Assembly (NCBI GenBank): GCA_905250025.1
Contig: CAJNOJ010000242.1
Span: 92,356-156,355, forward strand
Length of the DNA: 64,000 nucleotides
Reading direction: 5' to 3'
Source: Adineta ricciae
Lineage: Eukaryota; Rotifera; Eurotatoria; Adinetida; Adinetidae
Shown here: piece after piece, positions 2,352 through 64,000 of the stretch
Layout: every line of letters starts with the position of its first letter
Position numbering within the stretch: position 1 is the first letter of the stretch
Translations under genes and position numbers: made by a program
Notes under the pieces: generated by a model
What the model was told of the DNA's origin: nothing
The model's input: only the letters and a program-made list of their open reading frames with translations
The model's database searches: none

Positions 2352-5111
2352 TTAAAAAGTAGTAGCGGTAAAATCAAGGTTTTTTTCATCGCCATTCTTG
2401 AAATGATTTGCAGCTTTTAAGTCGCCGTTCATTGGTACTTGGTACGGCAATTCTCTTTCAGTTTTATGATGATATTTTCGCATAATTGCTTGGTATATCG
2501 GTTTGAGGAGCAGTTTATATAATAAAAATACCAAACGAAAGATTTCCAAACAAACGATGGTGAACAATAAATTACGAAAGATAATTTCGGATTTACGAGC
2601 AATAGGTTGTTGAATATTCTTGACATAATAAGGCGTTTCGCTCACAGCTATACTCAATGTTGTTATTATCGATGATGACAGAACGTATTGTTTCGTTGTG
2701 GCAAATAAACTATTCGTGTCAACAGTAAACGTTGGAATATAAATACCACTATAATCAGATTCTTCTCCTTCCATTGGTCGGGTTTCATTGATAATCTTAG
2801 TGATTGCCAGAGCTACCGGTATATTACGTGATAACATATAGCCACTTTTGTAGAAAGGTTGATAAAATTGTAGTTGTCTTAATTCGTATTTTTCTTTCTT
2901 AACTCCATCACTAGACATACCAATACGTAATGCTCCGATCGTTTTTGTGTCTTCCAGAAAGACTTTAACAGCAATCTGTTGAGAGGACAATGGAATAGAT
3001 AATGTCAGCACAGAATCTGTATTGTTACAACTTGACCATCGAATCGTTGACCATGTCAATCCAACTTGTGCTTGAATTGATGCTGAATCACAGTTCACCA
3101 ACGTGTTGACGAAATCAATATTCAAAGTGAATATTTGCTCATTGAGTAAATCAAACATTTCTTGTTCAGCATGAGCGAGCGGAATAGCTAATGATTGTAC
3201 ATTTGTATCAAATTTGGCGTTTCTCATTGATTCATCACATGTAAAATAGGAATCGCCTGATTGTTCGATTGGATACTGTTTTAAATAACCGTTGCTGAAT
3301 GCATATGCAAAGCAAACTAAAACAAGGATGGAGAACGATACTAATCCGCCCACCCAAGATTTGCCATCACCAATTAAGTCTGTATGTTTGAATGCGTATG
3401 TCACAACATGTTGAACGTTTTTACTACGACGAGTTTTCACACAGAGTTTTAAGATTTCCATGATAATGATAATAACAATTACGACACACGCGACTACGAG
3501 TGCCCAAAACAAGGGTGACACGAGTAGACAATGACCAGAACCGATGCTAAATATACTGTGAATGATAATCTCGTCAAATATCGTACTTTCGGGTGATTGT
3601 GGATAAGGAACAACTTGATATACGGTTGATAATACTGATTTTGGTACATCAGCGACGGATCCGAGTGGACAGAAAGAATTAGCCGAACACGGCAAGCATT
3701 CGTTGCTGGCATTGCCAGGATTCTTCGTGCCCGTTGCACAAAGAACACAATCAAATACGCCACTCTTGTTTTTAAATGTACCAGCCATGCACGGTTTGGG
3801 AGTCGTGATGAATGGTGATAAACCGGTACGTACTACAGATGGATAGTATTGTGCTTGTGTAGGAGAAAAGATTATAACTTTGCCTTCGTCATTAAGTAAT
3901 GCTAATGAAGATGGCGATGAAACAACATTCAAGAAAACAGAACTAAAACTAGATGGTAATAACTGATGGCTATTTGGAAAAACAGATAATGGAACACTCT
4001 CAGAATTATATCCATTTGCATAAATATCAAATAGAAATATCTGAGATGTTGACCATACATAATCAAGACTATATACGTTTATCAGGACAGCAGCAATTCC
4101 ATCCTTCATCCATGCAATACTTTTACCATTTCCGATTGAACGACCATTGGTGTACCGACTGATAAAAGTTAACTGAATTGCATTCGTAAGATTTACAGCA
4201 AAATAAAATACACGATTGATAAACTGCATTCCAACTAAGACTTTTCCGTCCTCGTTAATACTTACGCTCATGTCATATTTAGCCGAGTAAACATCGGCAT
4301 CATCATAAGTTAACAAGTCTTGCCATGTTCCAATGCTTGCAACTGGCTTATACGAATCAACAGTATACGGATGATAGTATGCACCGGATGAATTGAATCG
4401 AAGAAGATATATCATTGGACTATATTTTGCTGTGGAATTTCCACGATTGAGAATAAATCCAGCGACAACACCGAAACTATCACTGAGGTCTACAGCATGA
4501 GGAATGAATGTACTATCTGGCCATGTTAAGTTTCCATCCCATATGTTTGTATTAATCGATGAAGATGCATTCGCTGTATCAAAGACAGCAACGTATTTGT
4601 TCGAGAATGCGAAAGCACGCGTACCTTGTGGATGAACACCGAGTGTCAAGTATTCCTGATGGTCGTGATTATTCAGATAGTAAAGTGAATAGGTAAAACT
4701 TGTATCACATATGGACGAAGTAAGATTTGATCTTTGTTGCAAGTTATTAAACGTTGCCATGCCGATAAACAGTCCGCTTTCATTTTTGATATGTTCACCG
4801 ATGAAAAAGAAATGAAGTTGAGATTCATTTTGTTTTTTACCGATAGCAGCGGTATAAATGAAAGTATCTGTCGAGTTTGGATACTGCAGAGTGCATTGCG
4901 AAGAAGTCAGAGTATGATTGTAGGGCGCAAATTGTATTGCAAATCGTGGTGGTTGATTGTTGTTTTGTGCAACGACAAGAAGATAATCATTCATCGCAAT
5001 CTTTGATCCATATGCATCGTAATCCGCTGTGTTTGGTGTGAAGAAAGACTGAAGAGATTTTATATGTACGAGAAGAATTGTAAGAAGAAAGTAACACGAA
5101 GGAAATATCAT
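2352..5111 (-). CDS. Large intronless secreted-domain/multi-pass membrane protein, function unknown
   Basis: A single 919-residue frame starts at a clear ATG. Residues 1-22 form a signal peptide. The ectodomain of about 430 residues has many NxS/T glycosylation sites and repeated strand-like patterns that could be a beta-propeller (inference). A cysteine-rich segment at about 440-495 resembles GCC2/GCC3 or TNFR-like modules (CMAGTF...CVLC...CLPC...FCPLG). Hydrophobic helices lie at about 528-556, 584-604 and 845-867, with a basic cytoplasmic tail. I believe similar proteins are abundant in bdelloids, but I cannot name a family with function. The lack of introns is notable, because most other genes here carry several. 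It could be a receptor or cell-surface adhesion protein. Confidence 0.75.
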   Translation of the reverse strand: MIFPSCYFLLTILLVHIKSLQSFFTPNTADYDAYGSKIAMNDYLLVVAQNNNQPPRFAIQFAPYNHTLTSSQCTLQYPNSTDTFIYTAAIGKKQNESQLHFFFIGEHIKNESGLFIGMATFNNLQQRSNLTSSICDTSFTYSLYYLNNHDHQEYLTLGVHPQGTRAFAFSNKYVAVFDTANASSSINTNIWDGNLTWPDSTFIPHAVDLSDSFGVVAGFILNRGNSTAKYSPMIYLLRFNSSGAYYHPYTVDSYKPVASIGTWQDLLTYDDADVYSAKYDMSVSINEDGKVLVGMQFINRVFYFAVNLTNAIQLTFISRYTNGRSIGNGKSIAWMKDGIAAVLINVYSLDYVWSTSQIFLFDIYANGYNSESVPLSVFPNSHQLLPSSFSSVFLNVVSSPSSLALLNDEGKVIIFSPTQAQYYPSVVRTGLSPFITTPKPCMAGTFKNKSGVFDCVLCATGTKNPGNASNECLPCSANSFCPLGSVADVPKSVLSTVYQVVPYPQSPESTIFDEIIIHSIFSIGSGHCLLVSPLFWALVVACVVIVIIIIMEILKLCVKTRRSKNVQHVVTYAFKHTDLIGDGKSWVGGLVSFSILVLVCFAYAFSNGYLKQYPIEQSGDSYFTCDESMRNAKFDTNVQSLAIPLAHAEQEMFDLLNEQIFTLNIDFVNTLVNCDSASIQAQVGLTWSTIRWSSCNNTDSVLTLSIPLSSQQIAVKVFLEDTKTIGALRIGMSSDGVKKEKYELRQLQFYQPFYKSGYMLSRNIPVALAITKIINETRPMEGEESDYSGIYIPTFTVDTNSLFATTKQYVLSSSIITTLSIAVSETPYYVKNIQQPIARKSEIIFRNLLFTIVCLEIFRLVFLLYKLLLKPIYQAIMRKYHHKTERELPYQVPMNGDLKAANHFKNGDEKNLDFTATTF

Positions 5112-8100
5112 GTCTCAAGTCGACTGATGCGAATAATGGTGTTTGTGAAGAATAACAAAACGCTGAAGTTGTTTACTGAGAAAGATTTTTTGGAATATCT
5201 AAAATAATAGCGAAAAAATTGAAAGAGCAACGTGAAGTGTGTGTTGTTTTATCCCAAACTATCGTTGTCGTTATTTTCATAACGTTTTGATGTTTTTTTT
5301 ATTACTTGGTGCAAATTTCAATTCAAAGATTAATCGTAGAAGTAACGATCTATTTTAGTTGAAAGATTGTGTAAGATTCGATTCCACTCCAAAAATGGAG
5401 CAGTAGGCGTCAATGTGCGTGTTACAAAATTATACTGGTGTTTTCCACTCTTTTGTGTGCAAATATTTGACTATAATAGAGTATTATTCCACCTGGAAAA
5501 CTCGAGTGGAGACATAAATCATTATTCTTAAATTTGGAAACCTAAAATAAAACCCCAATCCTATCAATTAAAGTATAATATGTGGCAAGTTAATGTAATC
5601 CCATATATTAACTTGTCTGCAAGCAGAAACAGAACATTTTTATATACTTTAGTGATTCGATAAGAGACAATAACCTGTATTGAAAGTATTCCAATCTATG
5701 AAAGTGACGTAAATCTACCTTCACTTTTCGTGTTTACTTACCACAATCAGAATCTGATGTCAGAGTGCTTGCAATTTAACCTGAGCTCTACAACATTGAG
5801 AAACCCATGGTATCGTGTACTGTTTGACCAAATTATAAATCACAAATACTTGAAATAAATGTGTCTTTACCAACCTACATAAATACTTTATAAAACAAAC
5901 ATGAATCAGTCGATGTCTCTATGTATACAAAGCACACCTCAACAAAAAATTCAAAAGCAAACTATTAACCGAAAAAACAACAGTGTGCGTCACACTGTTC
6001 TTGTTCACAAAAAAGAAATTTTAATGCGCTATGATGTGCGCAGTTATGTGGGAAAATAACCATCTTTTCTTTCAAAGCCCTTTATGCACATTTAATTTCT
6101 AGCTTTAGACGTTCAGATTACATACATGTTAGTCGCATTCCATATCGAAGGTTTCTCTGTTAATATACAGTGTAGAATTCAAAAACTTAGCACATAACTA
6201 CTGTAATACTTCTATGGAAGAAGGGCCAGAATTATCATTCTAAAAAATCAAGTAAGATGAATAATACCTTCGAATTTGGTCAAAATTTGTTCGATTTTCT
6301 TTCGTTGAAATTTCATCCCTTCAAAACTAGATCGAATGATCTGATTCAACAAAAGCCGAATATTTATACAAACGCAAAAGAAAACATCCAATGTCAGAGC
6401 TACAGAAGCATTTTAAATAACCATATATAATAAAGAATCTCTAAGAATATATTTTTCTTTTGAAGAAATCGGTACATAACCTTGTTGTTTCGGACGTAAA
6501 AAGCACTTTCGATTGTCATTGATCAAACAAAATTACTCATCTACTATCGAGTTGCTCATTATTCGATACTTAACGATCATGTTTTTCAAAAATCATGACG
6601 CACTTTGTTTGCATTTTTTGTTTCATTTCGTATCGATCTCGAGCACGAGCAGACCATACGATATTTTTCGACATATGTGCCTTAATCGTATTGACTATGC
6701 TGTTACATTTCAATTTCCTGATGGAAACGATTGAACAAAGTCAATCATTCGAGAAGACTGGAGTACGAACATATGTGACGAGAGAAAATCATTAACAAAA
6801 TGTTCTCAGCAATGCTTTTCTATTCCATCTACAGATTTGATATCATATGTAAAACAATGATGCCCAAATGGGAATACGGAAATATTTTTCTTTCGTATCA
6901 TTCGTATGGACAAACATTCTTGTCCTTTTCTTCTCAATGACGAAAAGCTTCATAATAAAGAAATGAAAGGTGTGTGATTCAATTAGAAATCGATTAACAG
7001 TATGTCTTATGTACACATCGAACTATAACGGCGGGAAAAATCAACAAGCACATGTACGTCAAATATAGACATTTGCTGTTTGTTTGACAACTGTTCGTTT
7101 TTTTCCTCCTTTGCATTCTTAATATCATCATCATCGCAGTGTGAATCCTCCGTATGGTGCTATCTTTCTGTCATTTCAAATGCATGTTCATATACGTATT
7201 CATTTCTTCTTCGTTTCTTATCTGTTTCACATGGATGTTGATTTGTTCTCGAGAGTTGAATGCAGGTGCACGACGCCATAGGCTATTTCTATGTTCAATA
7301 TTCTTATATAAACAAAGAGAGAAACTGGCAACACCTGATGAGAGAATACATGAGAATTCGTCTTCAGTGGAACATCAGATATCTGCGTCCGTCTTTTTCT
7401 TTCAGCAAGAGAGAAAAAAAACGAGAAATGTTCACAGCATTCCAATCAAAAATCAACCATTGGAGAAGTGGCAAAAGAGGAAAGAATAGAGAGAAAGAGA
7501 GAAAGAAAAAGAAGACAACAACAGACATAGAAGCTCTATGTTTACATATCTCTATTGCTTTCAGTACATAATATATCACTATCAAGCAACAATACCAACA
7601 ACGTAGTTCACTTGCAACATTTTCTAAACAATTAAGTAAGTACAGTCGCGTTTCCGTTTCTCGTGTCGAATTATTTACGTAATCTTGCTTGATAATTAAA
7701 AACGAAAGGCATGACGTGTCCAATTTTAATATTCCAGCTGTCGGATTCGCTCCAGACTGTAAAGCTGATCATCTTACATCTTTTCACGCGGTAGATGCCG
7801 ATAGACAAACATGTCATGCATACGTTAAAGCGTTTACAATTCTCATGTTCGCTTCTTTTTTTGCGTCAACAGCTGCCAGTAGAAAATAACATCAATTTGA
7901 TTTGATCATCGATCAACTTTTTTTCATTCACTCGTTTGCTTTCTTCTCTGTCTTCGTCAAAGTGGGAATACACGCACTCGTGCAACTTCTGTTCTAATTC
8001 TCCAAAGAGAACCAAATGGTCCCTTCGTAAAAATAAAAAACATATGTTCGATATTCTCTTCCCTCTCTATTTGCCGCTTTCACTAGGCTAATTTTTAACT

Positions 8101-60039: not shown

Positions 60040-63000
60040 ATGTCGAACAGACTCGTTTATGTTAATTTCAAGTTCAGAACTCTCTTCATTCTCAGACAAC
60101 AAATACCATGCATCTCATCCACATCACCCTTCTCCACTCATCCAAGAAACATCGATCCCGGTCAACAGATGAAGTTACTCAATGACAAAAAGCAGTTCAA
60201 ACAAACCATTGAGTTGTTCGAGAGAGAAACGAAGAAGAACAAGGAACAACTGTCCAGTTTCATCATCGATCAGGCGTTGAAAGCATGTGTACAAGTGCAT
60301 GACTTTCGACGTGGAAAAGATATTCATCAGTTGGTTCAACATCGATTATCAGCTGATTCTTCGTTAGTGAAATCTCTCATTCACTTCTACAGTATGTTCA
60401 TTGCGAATGAGATGACGTTATCTTCAATGGTGTTTCGTCGTAGTGCAATGTCATGATATGAACACAGCTGAATCTCTATTCCACATGTCGACAAACAAAA
60501 CGGTGTATATTTGTAGTGTGATGATGAAGGGTTCGAAGTTTTGATCGATGTTGTAGTGAAGGATCTGCGAGATGTGTTTTTATTGTGTTTAGGATACATT
60601 GAAAATGGGAAACCAGAGAAAGCGATTGAAGTTTTCAAAGGAATAGATAAACCTGATGCAGTTCTGATCACATTGTTGTTCAAAGCTTGTGCTCAAGTAC
60701 CATCAGAGGAATCGTTGAACTTCGTGAAAAACATCTGGAAGAAGTATCAAAACACATCTACTCTCAATTCATACGCTTTGACATCTTTAATCAATGCTTT
60801 AATGACACACAGAGATCTTAGCAGCGCAGAAAACATATTTAACGAACAATTAAACAAAGGACTGTCAATGTGTGGAGCAATGATGAAAGGTGTCTGTCTT
60901 TTCTCTTCGTTTTTCTGAATAGTTTTGTTGACAACTACTGCTGTTGTAGGATACATAGATAACGAGATGCCACAGAAAGCGATTAATCTTTTTCAACAGG
61001 TAGAAAATCCCAATGAAATTCTTATCGTACTTCTGTTCAATGCGTGTGCTCGACTACCCTCAAAACAATCGTTGAATTTAGTCAAGAATACCTGGGAACA
61101 GTCTCAAGTTAAATCTCTTCATAACGATAATGTATTAACTTCTGTGATCGATGCGTTGATGAAATGCGGAGATATCAAGAGTGCGGAAACTGCTTTTGAT
61201 ACATCATTAAACAAGTCGGTATATATGTATGGTGCAATGATGAAAGGTATGTTTTCCCATCAATCGCTTCACACGATTTTCCTAGATGCAATTGTGTTGG
61301 TAGGGTATATAAAAAATGAAATGCCAGAGAAAGCGATCGATCTTTTCAAACAAATCACACGTCTTGATGCAGTTCTCGTCACACTGTTGTTCAAGGCTTG
61401 TGCTCAAACACCATCAAAGGAATCGTTGAACTTCGTGAAAAACATCTGGAAGAAGTACCTAAACACGTCTCTTCTCAATCCCCATGCATTTAGCTCTCTA
61501 ATCAGTGCTTTAATGAAACATAGTGATGTGAAGAGTGCAGAAAATGTGTTTCACCAACGATCGAACAAAACCCTATCAATGTACGGTGCGATGATGAAAG
61601 GTATTCATTTCGTTCATTTCTCCGGATAATCTGTAAATATTACTATTCGTGTAGGATACATAGATAATGAGGTGCCACAGAAAGCGATTGATCTTTTCCG
61701 ACAGGTGGACAATCCTAATGAAATTCTCATTCTACTACTATTTAATGCATGTGCTCAACTAACCTCAGAACAATCGTTGAATTTAGTCAAGAACGTCTGG
61801 GAGCAATCTCAACGCAGATCTCTTCTTAGCGACAATTTATTAACTTCTGTAATCGATGCTCTCGTGAAATGCGGAGATGTTAGGAGTGCGGAAGTCGTTT
61901 TCGATGATTCACCAAACAAATCGATATCGATGTATGGAGCGATGATGAATGGTATGCTTCCCCATCAGTTTATCCGTATGATTTTTGAATGCTGTCGCCT
62001 CTGTAGGATACATCAAGAATGATATGTCGAAGAAAGCGATTGATCTTTTCCAACAAATCAAAGATCCGAATGAGGTTACCATAACACTTATGATTCAAGC
62101 TCTCATGAAATGCAATAATGTCAAAGACGCAGAAACATTTTTCCACAGATCAACAAACAAATTCGTGCGGATGTACGGAGCAATGATGCAGGGTATTATC
62201 TTCGATTAAATTCCTACATAGTGTCACTCGCTCATATTGTCGTTAAAGGGTACATAAACCATGAGATTCCAGAAAAAGCGGTTAATCTTTTCAACCAAGT
62301 TAACGAACCTGACGAGATTTTAGTCACACTCCTGTTCAAAGCTTGTGCTCAAATGCCATCAGAACAATCGTTGAACTTAGTCAAAAATGTCTGGGAACAA
62401 TATAGCACTAAACTTGTCCGTAGCGAAAATACACTAACTTCCCTAATCAATACTCTCATGAAATGTGGCGACGTCAACCATTCAGAAGCCGTTTTCACTG
62501 AATCACGGCACAAATCGATATCGATGTACGGAGCAATGATGACAGGTATGCTTTTCTTTTATTGTTTTCATATGAGTCTATCGAGTTCTGACGTCTTGCA
62601 GGTTACATTGGGAATGAAATGTCGGAAAAAGCGATTGATCTCTTTAAGCAAATCAATGATCCAAATGAGGTTATCGTCACACTACTCTTCAATGCTTGTG
62701 CTCAACTACCCTCACAACAATCGTTGGGCTTGCTCAAAACCGTGTGGAAGAAGTATCAAAACACGTCTCTTCTCGATGATCATGCGCTAACTGCTTTAAT
62801 CGATGCTTTCATGAGGTTTGGAGATGTTAATGGAGCAGAGACGATCTTCGACAAGTTACCACACAAAGTGTTACCTATGTATGGAGCTATGATGAAAGGT
62901 TGTTCATTGTTTTCATCGTGTTCAAGAAACTCATTCGAAACATTTCATTAGGATACCTTCTCAATAAAACACCAAACAAGACTCTTGATCTCTACCATCA

Positions 63001-64000
63001 AACCAAAAGTAAGCGTTTCATACAAAATATTTTCATTTTGTTCAGTTTCTTCATTCAGACATGAAGGAAACACAGTCAAATTTCGTCATTTATCTACTTG
63101 CGATCAATGCATCGGCACAGATTGCCATGGCATCCCAATGTCAGGCTATTGTGGATGACATTCCACTACAGATCATTTCTAATAGCAAAATATCTAACGC
63201 TCTCATAGATATGTGGGTAAGTGTTACACGGACAATGAAATATGAATAGTTAAACGTCTTTATTCATGAACCGTTCCTAGGGTAAAGCTGGTTGTGTGCA
63301 AAAAGCTGAAGAGGTTTTCGCCAATCTTTCATCGATTGATCAAGTCGGATATGCATCAATGAGTTAGATCTGCTATTGATTTCACCAGCATCACCCTCAC
63401 GTTCCTCTCGGTCTTTATTTCTTTATTTAGTTCATGTTTATGGCATCAATGGAATGGGTGTGAAAGCACTCCAACTTTTCCATCAGATTCCACGATCGTT
63501 GCTTGCCGATTACACTTATGTTTGTGTTCTCAATGCATGTTCGCATGCTGGACTCGTTGATCAAGCTCGCTCGATCTTCACCAGCATCGAATCGAAAACA
63601 GAAAAGCATTATGCCGCAACGGTAATTCTCAAATGACATATTCTGCTCAATCTGTCAAAGGTGACTCTGATGCTCGTTTTTCTTTTGAAGATGGATTGTC
63701 TAAGTCGAGGATCACTGTTCGATGAAGCACAACAGCTGATCAATCAATATGAACTGCATCATCCACCTTCACCTGTCATGTACAGTAAGTCAGTCGGTAG
63801 AAGAGAAATATCTATGAGACGGGTTGTGTTTGAGAATATGGAAACAGTTCTCTTCATGATCGAAATGAATGAGTGAATGAATTGATTTCGTTGTAGTGGC
63901 ATTACTATCAGCTGCAAGAAATCGAAGAAACAAACAGCTAGTCGAAAGCATTCACCAACGGATGAAGAAGCTCTTTCCTCGCTTACCCGATCTGATCACA
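60040..64000 (+). CDS. Plant-type (PLS-class) pentatricopeptide repeat protein, 3' end outside window
   Basis: Exons: 60040-60391, 60444-60530, 60593-60889, 60950-61246, 61304-61600, 61655-61951, 62007-62192, 62249-62545, 62602-62898, 62952-63008, 63059-63216, 63281-63362, 63431-63621, 63691-63784, 63897-64000+ (1031 codons so far, frame open at the edge). The Arg/Ser-rich N terminus without acidic residues looks like a mitochondrial presequence. Repeats follow plant PLS patterns: MYGAMMKGYI...KAIDLF, LLFNACAQ, and TSVIDALMKCGDVKSAE. Near the edge come NALIDMWGKAGCVQKAEEVF, VLNACSHAGLVDQARSIF, MDCLSRGSLFDEAQQLI and ALLSAARNRRNKQLVESI, matching the last repeats and E-domain start of plant RNA-editing factors. 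It probably binds organellar RNA; a C-terminal DYW deaminase is predicted but not seen. Confidence 0.92.
60593..62898 (+). repeat. Tandem array of duplicated PPR-triplet exons
   Basis: Six exons (60593, 60950, 61304, 61655, 62249 and 62602) are each exactly 297 bp, and a seventh (62007-62192) is 186 bp. All have phase-1 introns at both ends: exons open with GATACAT-like sequence and close with ATGATGAAAG. Each encodes 99 residues, one three-motif PPR unit. Proteins from exons at 60593 and 61304 resemble each other most (FVKNIWKKY), as do those at 60950 and 61655 (LVKN-WEQSQ). This suggests duplication of a two-exon block. Confidence 0.92.

Follow-up and report, generated by a model that had tools for sequence, protein, structure and literature searches.

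The DNA analyzed here is a stretch of 64,000 nucleotides (nt), referred to as the window, which corresponds to positions 92356–156355 of contig C242 in the nuclear genome of an animal that we assign to the bdelloid rotifers (see below). A gene encoding a PPR protein occupies the last ∼4 kb of the window (60040–64000, plus strand). In our hand-made splice model, this gene consists of 15 exons separated by 14 introns, all of the GT-AG type, and has 1031 codons without a stop, from the ATG at 60040 to the last base of the window. The protein matches Pfam PPR with an E-value of 2.8e-68 and its repeats recur in triplets of 99 residues; its identity as a PLS-type PPR gene, proposed in an earlier note on this DNA, is close to certain. 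Since contig C242 ends at window base 64000 (its last base being 156,355), and not at a stop codon, the C terminus of the gene is unreadable and is cut inside the E domain.

Exon 1 (60040–60391) contains the start codon, the presequence-like N terminus and the first repeats, and is followed by an 87-nt, phase-1 exon (exon 2, 60444–60530) that recurs in many of the paralogue models. Seven internal exons then lie between 60593 and 62898. Six of them (exon 3, 60593–60889; exon 4, 60950–61246; exon 5, 61304–61600; exon 6, 61655–61951; exon 8, 62249–62545; and exon 9, 62602–62898) are exactly 297 nt in length and start in phase 1, and each encodes 99 residues that form one P-L-S triplet, a module shared by the paralogues. 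The seventh (exon 7, 62007–62192) is a shortened module of 186 nt, and the spacing of repeats in the protein is 99 residues for 6 of the 7 intervals and 62 residues for the remaining one. The repeating P-L-S triplets that characterize the PLS class are, thus, provided by the six 99-residue triplet exons and a terminal P-L-S unit.

The remaining exons, in which motifs were assigned by eye, contain the last P-L-S repeats and the start of the E domain, in agreement with the way the earlier note had read them. Exon 10 (62952–63008) measures 57 nt, as does an exon in the models from contigs C508 and C131 and in one of those from C322 (C322_73k). Exon 11 (63059–63216, 158 nt) contains an L motif and the first part of the penultimate S motif, including Asn at position 5, and exon 12 (63281–63362, 82 nt) contains the rest of this motif, with Asp at its last position, and the start of P2. 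P2, L2 and the start of S2 are encoded by exon 13 (63431–63621, 191 nt), while exon 14 (63691–63784, 94 nt) encodes the remainder of S2 and the beginning of E. Exon 15 (63897–64000) is open and encodes E domain sequence up to the end of the contig; the nearest copy, on C508, continues from here into E, E+ and DYW.

Comparison of the window protein with the sequences of solved structures gave 26 matches, the best of which is a synthetic PPR-DYW protein (9kfx, E = 2.6e-46), followed by a designed PLS protein (3.8e-20). At the N terminus, residues 1–38 include five Lys/Arg and no Asp or Glu, the first acidic residue being located at position 39. Judged by its composition, this acid-free, basic segment would suit a mitochondrial presequence, as had been suggested for it earlier.

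A DNA search of the same genome with the last 1.8 kb of the window gene identified its closest copies on C508 (91%), C322 (three copies, 81–87%) and C131 (76%). A DYW domain is located downstream in all five of them, which is what had been anticipated for the sequence beyond the window, and, by inference from these relatives, the window gene very probably ends in E/DYW as well. The hand-spliced C508 copy continues through an E motif (E_motif, 28.8 bits; Pfam cut-off 27.3), an E+ motif (Eplus, 30.7 bits; cut-off 24) and a DYW deaminase domain (DYW_deaminase, 1e-30, above the Pfam cut-off) that is matched over residues 1–93 of the 93-residue model. It carries a PG-box-like PGLSWTAVDGELYQF, the motifs HSEKLAIA and NLRVCGDCH, and the terminal residues CSCNDYF. 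Its matches to solved structures include the synthetic PPR-DYW protein 9kfx (7.8e-50) and 7o4e (At3g63370, which we take to be OTP86; 6.6e-33). In an alignment of five rotifer sequences with that of 9kfx, the columns of HSE, KNLR and CxDCH are invariant. The hallmarks of the DYW type, E/E+ motifs and a deaminase with HxE and CxxC, are therefore present in the nearest copies, while the window gene itself preserves the E start only. An NCBIfam search gave no match.

The search with the same 1.8 kb also served to look for sequence past 64000, and it returned no match at full identity other than the window. Read in reverse, C508 begins at its right end within the tail of a further family member, and a C322 end has a partial DYW match. 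Either end could be the missing part of the window gene; nothing ties either of them to it, and they were left unjoined.

The window gene belongs to a large family. A profile search of the genome returned 127 DYW matches, and grouping of matches on one strand within 400 bases of each other resulted in 81 loci on 48 contigs, 62 of which are near-complete and 19 partial at the DYW model. These 81 loci include probable allelic copies, so that distinct genes are fewer, while arrays broken at contig ends bias the count in the opposite direction. The loci form clusters of up to six (C170) and five (C461) members. In 44 of the 81 loci, the DYW model is matched in two pieces, mostly split near model position 58–60, as an intron at the CxxC codons, like that of the C508 copy, would do. 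No DYW matches were found in 14 control genomes, the eight named ones of which are all prokaryotes and, hence, uninformative about other animals. Contigs C201 and C211 contain matching sets of three DYW loci, with 94% protein identity in the pair compared, and are probably homologous copies. DYW loci are also found within ∼5 kb of the ends of C242, C508, C322, C13 and C237 and of the starts of C101, C371 and C461. Tandem arrays that interrupt the assembly, or that are situated near chromosome ends, would lead to such locations, in which case the copy count is a lower bound.

Paralogues were modeled with a home-made splice finder based on codon usage, and several of the 26 resulting gene models have errors in small introns, or lack them, particularly near CxxC. 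Among their predicted exons, 22 are 297 nt long, five are 300 nt and four are 288 nt, all in phase 1, a fifth 288-nt exon being in phase 0. A common exon series is found in most models and consists of an 87-nt exon, the modules, either a 506-nt exon or a 57-nt plus 158-nt pair, and exons of 82, 191, 94 and 245 nt. This series differs in C9, C45 and the second C131 gene; these divergent DYW genes (C9:554000–559020, with PGLTWIEIDG; C45:186400–191500; and C131:196000–200260) are possibly older members. The length of the array varies among paralogues by whole modules, for example from one to three on C461. Because the modules are 297-nt, phase-1 exons, the binding array can change in length while the reading frame is kept. 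The window gene and eight of the nine listed paralogues lack any acidic residue before position 18–49, and the ninth model lacks a start. The ratio of nonsynonymous to synonymous substitution rates (dN/dS) is 0.08–0.47, and mostly 0.1–0.3, in the E2-DYW region of pairs with unsaturated dS, and 0.18–0.46 over stretches containing PPRs, where repeat arrays are prone to slips in register. The family is under purifying selection.

The neighbors of the window gene are animal genes, in line with the animal genome assumed in the earlier note. Five of ten scanned open frames in the window match Pfam families, namely the N- and C-terminal parts of UNC80, a rhodopsin-type G-protein-coupled receptor, crooked-neck HAT repeats and a DEAD helicase. 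A single open frame of 920 codons on the minus strand (2352–5114) has no Pfam match. The assembly also contains a complete mitochondrial DNA (mtDNA) of 13,583 bp, with ∼120 nt repeated at both ends, which a single N links to nuclear scaffold C55. This join, at position 2484 of L046 (C55:464484), is a scaffolding artefact, yet it yields the whole mitochondrial genome; the nuclear frame that precedes it (L046, 3–1448) may encode a multicopper oxidase, which it resembles by its HCHMEWH motif. The mitochondrial protein genes are arranged in the order ND2, COX1, ND6, ATP6, ND1, CYTB, ND4L, ND4, ND5, COX2, COX3 and ND3. All 12 are in the same order in Rotaria rotatoria (PMC2784805), and synteny, with this set of 12 genes, was reported for the complete bdelloid mtDNAs available by 2012 (PMC3426538). 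Thus, the gene order indicates that the animal is a bdelloid rotifer. A spliced-leader sequence was reported for three of three rotifers (PMC3795323); an exact copy of this sequence is absent from the assembly, in which the spliced-leader genes may be unassembled or divergent.

The mtDNA was analyzed for candidate edit sites. Five of its 12 protein genes were considered (COX1, CYTB, COX3, ND1 and ND5, leaving out ND2, ND3, ND4, ND4L, ND6, ATP6 and COX2), with codon numbers that follow stop-to-stop frames. The gene-carrying strand is poor in cytosine (4.4–8.2% in 1-kb windows). Codon 384 of COX1 is CTT (Leu), in the context AHLHYALS, and a single C-to-U change would convert it to TTT (Phe), the residue that occupies this position in all 80 alphaproteobacterial homologues, as well as in the best 5 of 59 matched chains; CTT is rare among the Leu codons of the mitochondrial reading frames (14 of 539). 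Similarly, CYTB codon 273 is TCT (Ser), in PEWYSL, and would become TTT (Phe). The equivalent residue in 29 bacterial homologues is Phe (20), Tyr (6) or Leu (3), and never Ser, and it is Phe in the best 5 of 52 matched chains. COX1 L384F and CYTB S273F are, therefore, the best predicted edits. A third candidate, A387V of COX1, is only weakly predicted; its GCT codon (Ala) corresponds to Val in 73 of 80 bacterial homologues and to Thr in the other seven. The low number of C-type departures makes these two or three exceptions stand out, though they were noticed post hoc.

Taken together, we consider it somewhat probable that the window gene encodes a mitochondrial C-to-U editing factor. Such a nuclear PLS-E-DYW protein would be imported into mitochondria, where its repeats would bind one particular RNA and its C-terminal DYW zinc deaminase would convert a specific cytidine to uridine. 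The family would grow by tandem gene duplication and by gain and loss of 297-nt, phase-1 exons, each of which adds or removes one PLS triplet. A more detailed proposal remains tentative, and we regard it as possible rather than probable: that the animal has plant-style, DYW-dependent mitochondrial editing at COX1 L384F and CYTB S273F at least, served by ∼80 loci built of interchangeable PLS-triplet exons, and that its internal repeats have departed from the plant code (Gly at position 5 in P, and Thr at position 5 with Val, Ser or Thr in S), leaving the base to be chosen mainly by the final few motifs.

Several observations weigh against editing, or against its base-specific form. Plant editing disfavors a G immediately upstream of the edited C, and COX1 codon 387 has a G at −1. 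A general excess of C-to-T-restorable sites was tried as proof of editing and rejected, as there is none in the five genes. COX1 departs at 27 of 234 sites at which cow and at least 90% of bacteria agree, and only two of these departures could be restored by C-to-T (two others purely by T-to-C, and one more partly); under a stricter rule (95%, bacteria alone), 1 of 39 departures is of the C-to-T type. CYTB departs at 29 of 113 conserved sites, none of which is C-to-T restorable and three of which are T-to-C restorable, codon 273 being outside this threshold. For COX3, ND1 and ND5, which were compared with one, two and two reference sequences, respectively, with no conservation filter beyond the agreement of the references, 0 of 138, 0 of 57 and 0 of 65 departures are C-to-T restorable, compared to 16, 5 and 10 by T-to-C. 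There is no broad editing load in the five genes examined. Furthermore, the GAP that precedes DMAFPR in COX1 (codons 94–96) reads NAM in the rotifer, despite the presence of G and P in 80 of 80 bacteria and in cow. Because invariant residues of this COX1 were lost by changes, such as G94N and P96M, that C-to-U editing cannot mend, L384 may also be plain divergence. Predictions from DNA are, moreover, unreliable: in Acrasis, cDNA rejected four of six strong candidates identified at the DNA level (PMC4202320).

The base-reading residues raise a similar difficulty. These were counted with regular expressions in the 26 gene models and the window protein, leaving out models of <250 residues and one duplicate, and the 73 S-to-P junctions recognized (56 with internal and 17 with penultimate S motifs) come from paralogues that are not independent. 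The plant PPR code uses Asn, Thr or Ser at position 5 and Asn or Asp at the last position of P and S motifs. The internal S motifs mostly have Thr at position 5 paired with Val (16), Ser (11) or Thr (7); only 8 of the 56 end in Asn or Asp, and these include at least one false motif (on C9), and Gly occupies position 5 of the following P motif in 48 of the 56 cases. The canonical residues, which are typical of such proteins and not defining, are thus generally missing from the internal repeats. The penultimate S motifs are nearer to the plant code, with Asn at position 5 and a final Asp in 9 of 17, Thr-Asp in two and Thr-Asn in one (12 of 17 in total). Base-specific reading is doubtful, because internal S motifs rarely end in Asn or Asp and are mostly followed by a P motif with Gly at position 5. 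Two readings offer themselves: the code may have changed, or the internal modules may serve mostly to lengthen the array and raise its affinity, leaving the choice to the region near the C terminus. Prediction of targets from the PPR code was abandoned since most internal code positions are non-canonical.

The 81 loci are also a poor match for two or three candidate sites, and this imbalance would be easier to understand if the proteins served mitochondrial RNA processing and not mainly editing, by stabilizing or cleaving transcripts or aiding translation, with the DYW domain kept for another role. This is the main rival explanation. A similar excess of proteins exists in Naegleria and Acrasis, for which cleavage, splicing or cytoplasmic activity was proposed (PMC4202320). 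However, the invariance of HSE…CxDCH in the five rotifer sequences and the purifying selection on E2-DYW are seemingly more than binding needs, and we consider this explanation unlikely. The same number of loci, their clusters of up to six (C170) and five (C461), the variable length of the arrays among paralogues and the few candidates in a C-poor mtDNA could alternatively reflect an arms race, in which the targets to be edited or mutated would be nuclear or cytoplasmic RNAs, such as transcripts of mobile elements. The presequence-like, acid-free N termini of the window gene and of eight of nine listed paralogues argue for a different destination, and nothing pointing to nuclear targets was found, though no search aimed at them was made; we give this possibility a low probability.

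It is more doubtful still that the family is a relic, or is decaying after its acquisition, with no present function. Nineteen of the 81 loci match the DYW model only in part and many DYW matches contain stops when read without introns. Apparent stops can, however, belong to an intron located at the CxxC codons (such an intron is present in the C508 copy, and two-piece matches are seen for 44 of 81 loci), and neither the open frame of 1031 codons nor dN/dS values of 0.18–0.46 (PPR) and 0.08–0.47 (E2-DYW) are those of decaying genes. Contamination of the assembly by plant or protist DNA, which the classically plant nature of the domain type might suggest, is hardly credible given UNC80 and a rhodopsin-type receptor on the same contig, the spread of the 81 loci over 48 contigs and the bdelloid gene order of the mtDNA in the assembly. 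Editing by imported DYW proteins is the explanation that we prefer. The MORF/RIP partner family (PF21864) has no matches in the genome, which is no proof of absence as it also has none in the 14 control genomes.

The earlier note mentioned DYW-type PPR proteins as known from bdelloid rotifers, and this is borne out by PMC4202320, which cites Schallenberg-Rudinger et al. (2013) for the rotifer proteins as a metazoan occurrence. In its tree, the rotifers Adineta ricciae and Philodina roseola group with Naegleria (posterior probability 0.93), transfer of DYW proteins from land plants is proposed, and lineage-specific expansions, as a general trend, are noted, as are proteins that outnumber the edit sites. 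Rotifera are also mentioned in PMC5295000. The accessible parts of PMC3482391 and PMC5982333 contain nothing on rotifer DYW proteins, and those of PMC7194472 nothing on rotifer editing. From this literature, a horizontal origin of the rotifer DYW genes is plausible; as to a viral donor, 24 stretches of viral contigs matched a pattern in one scan and none was confirmed as a relative. Neither a count or structure of rotifer DYW genes nor rotifer mitochondrial editing was found in the literature examined, the scope of which excludes the 2013 primary paper and a 2023 review. Thus, bdelloid DYW proteins were already known, and we found no report of the scale of the family, of the 297-nt exon for each PLS triplet or of the non-canonical internal residues.

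The publication of rotifer DYW genes raised the question, still open, of whether there are animals in which an enzyme of the plant type edits organelle RNA. It can now be addressed by a short experiment, given the large number of DYW loci, the complete mtDNA from the same animal and the exact positions of two or three predicted sites. Confirmation of editing would add animals to the organisms that edit with DYW proteins, and the modular exons would offer a natural system in which to study how PPR arrays switch targets. A negative outcome would leave ∼80 conserved deaminase loci that lack an obvious substrate and whose presence would have to be explained differently.

The ordinary animal PPR proteins have the PPR fold and a mitochondrial role in common with the rotifer proteins. 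To our knowledge, these proteins (LRPPRC, PTCD1–3, MRPS27 and PRORP) contain neither PLS triplets nor E/DYW domains, and their names are absent from the 26 solved-structure matches of the window protein. The rotifer proteins share their P-L-S triplets and E/E+ motifs with the PLS-class DYW editing factors of land plants (7o4e, At3g63370; 7w86, DYW1; and the synthetic 9kfx), and the C508 copy likewise has a PG-box-like PGLSWTAVDGELYQF and a complete deaminase with HSE and CGDC. Plant PPR genes are mostly intron-poor, whereas the rotifer genes are intron-rich with one triplet per 297-nt exon. They also differ in the Gly at position 5 of internal P motifs and in S motifs that have Thr at position 5 and mostly do not end in Asn or Asp, and the C508 copy terminates in NDYF instead of GDYW. 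As in the rotifer, the nuclear DYW genes of Naegleria and Acrasis exceed the mitochondrial edit sites, with 11 proteins for two sites and 12 proteins for two confirmed sites, respectively (PMC4202320), compared to 81 loci, some of them allelic, in the rotifer; editing is confirmed in these protists but only predicted in the rotifer. The published DYW proteins of Adineta ricciae and Philodina roseola come from the same animal group and have the same domain type.

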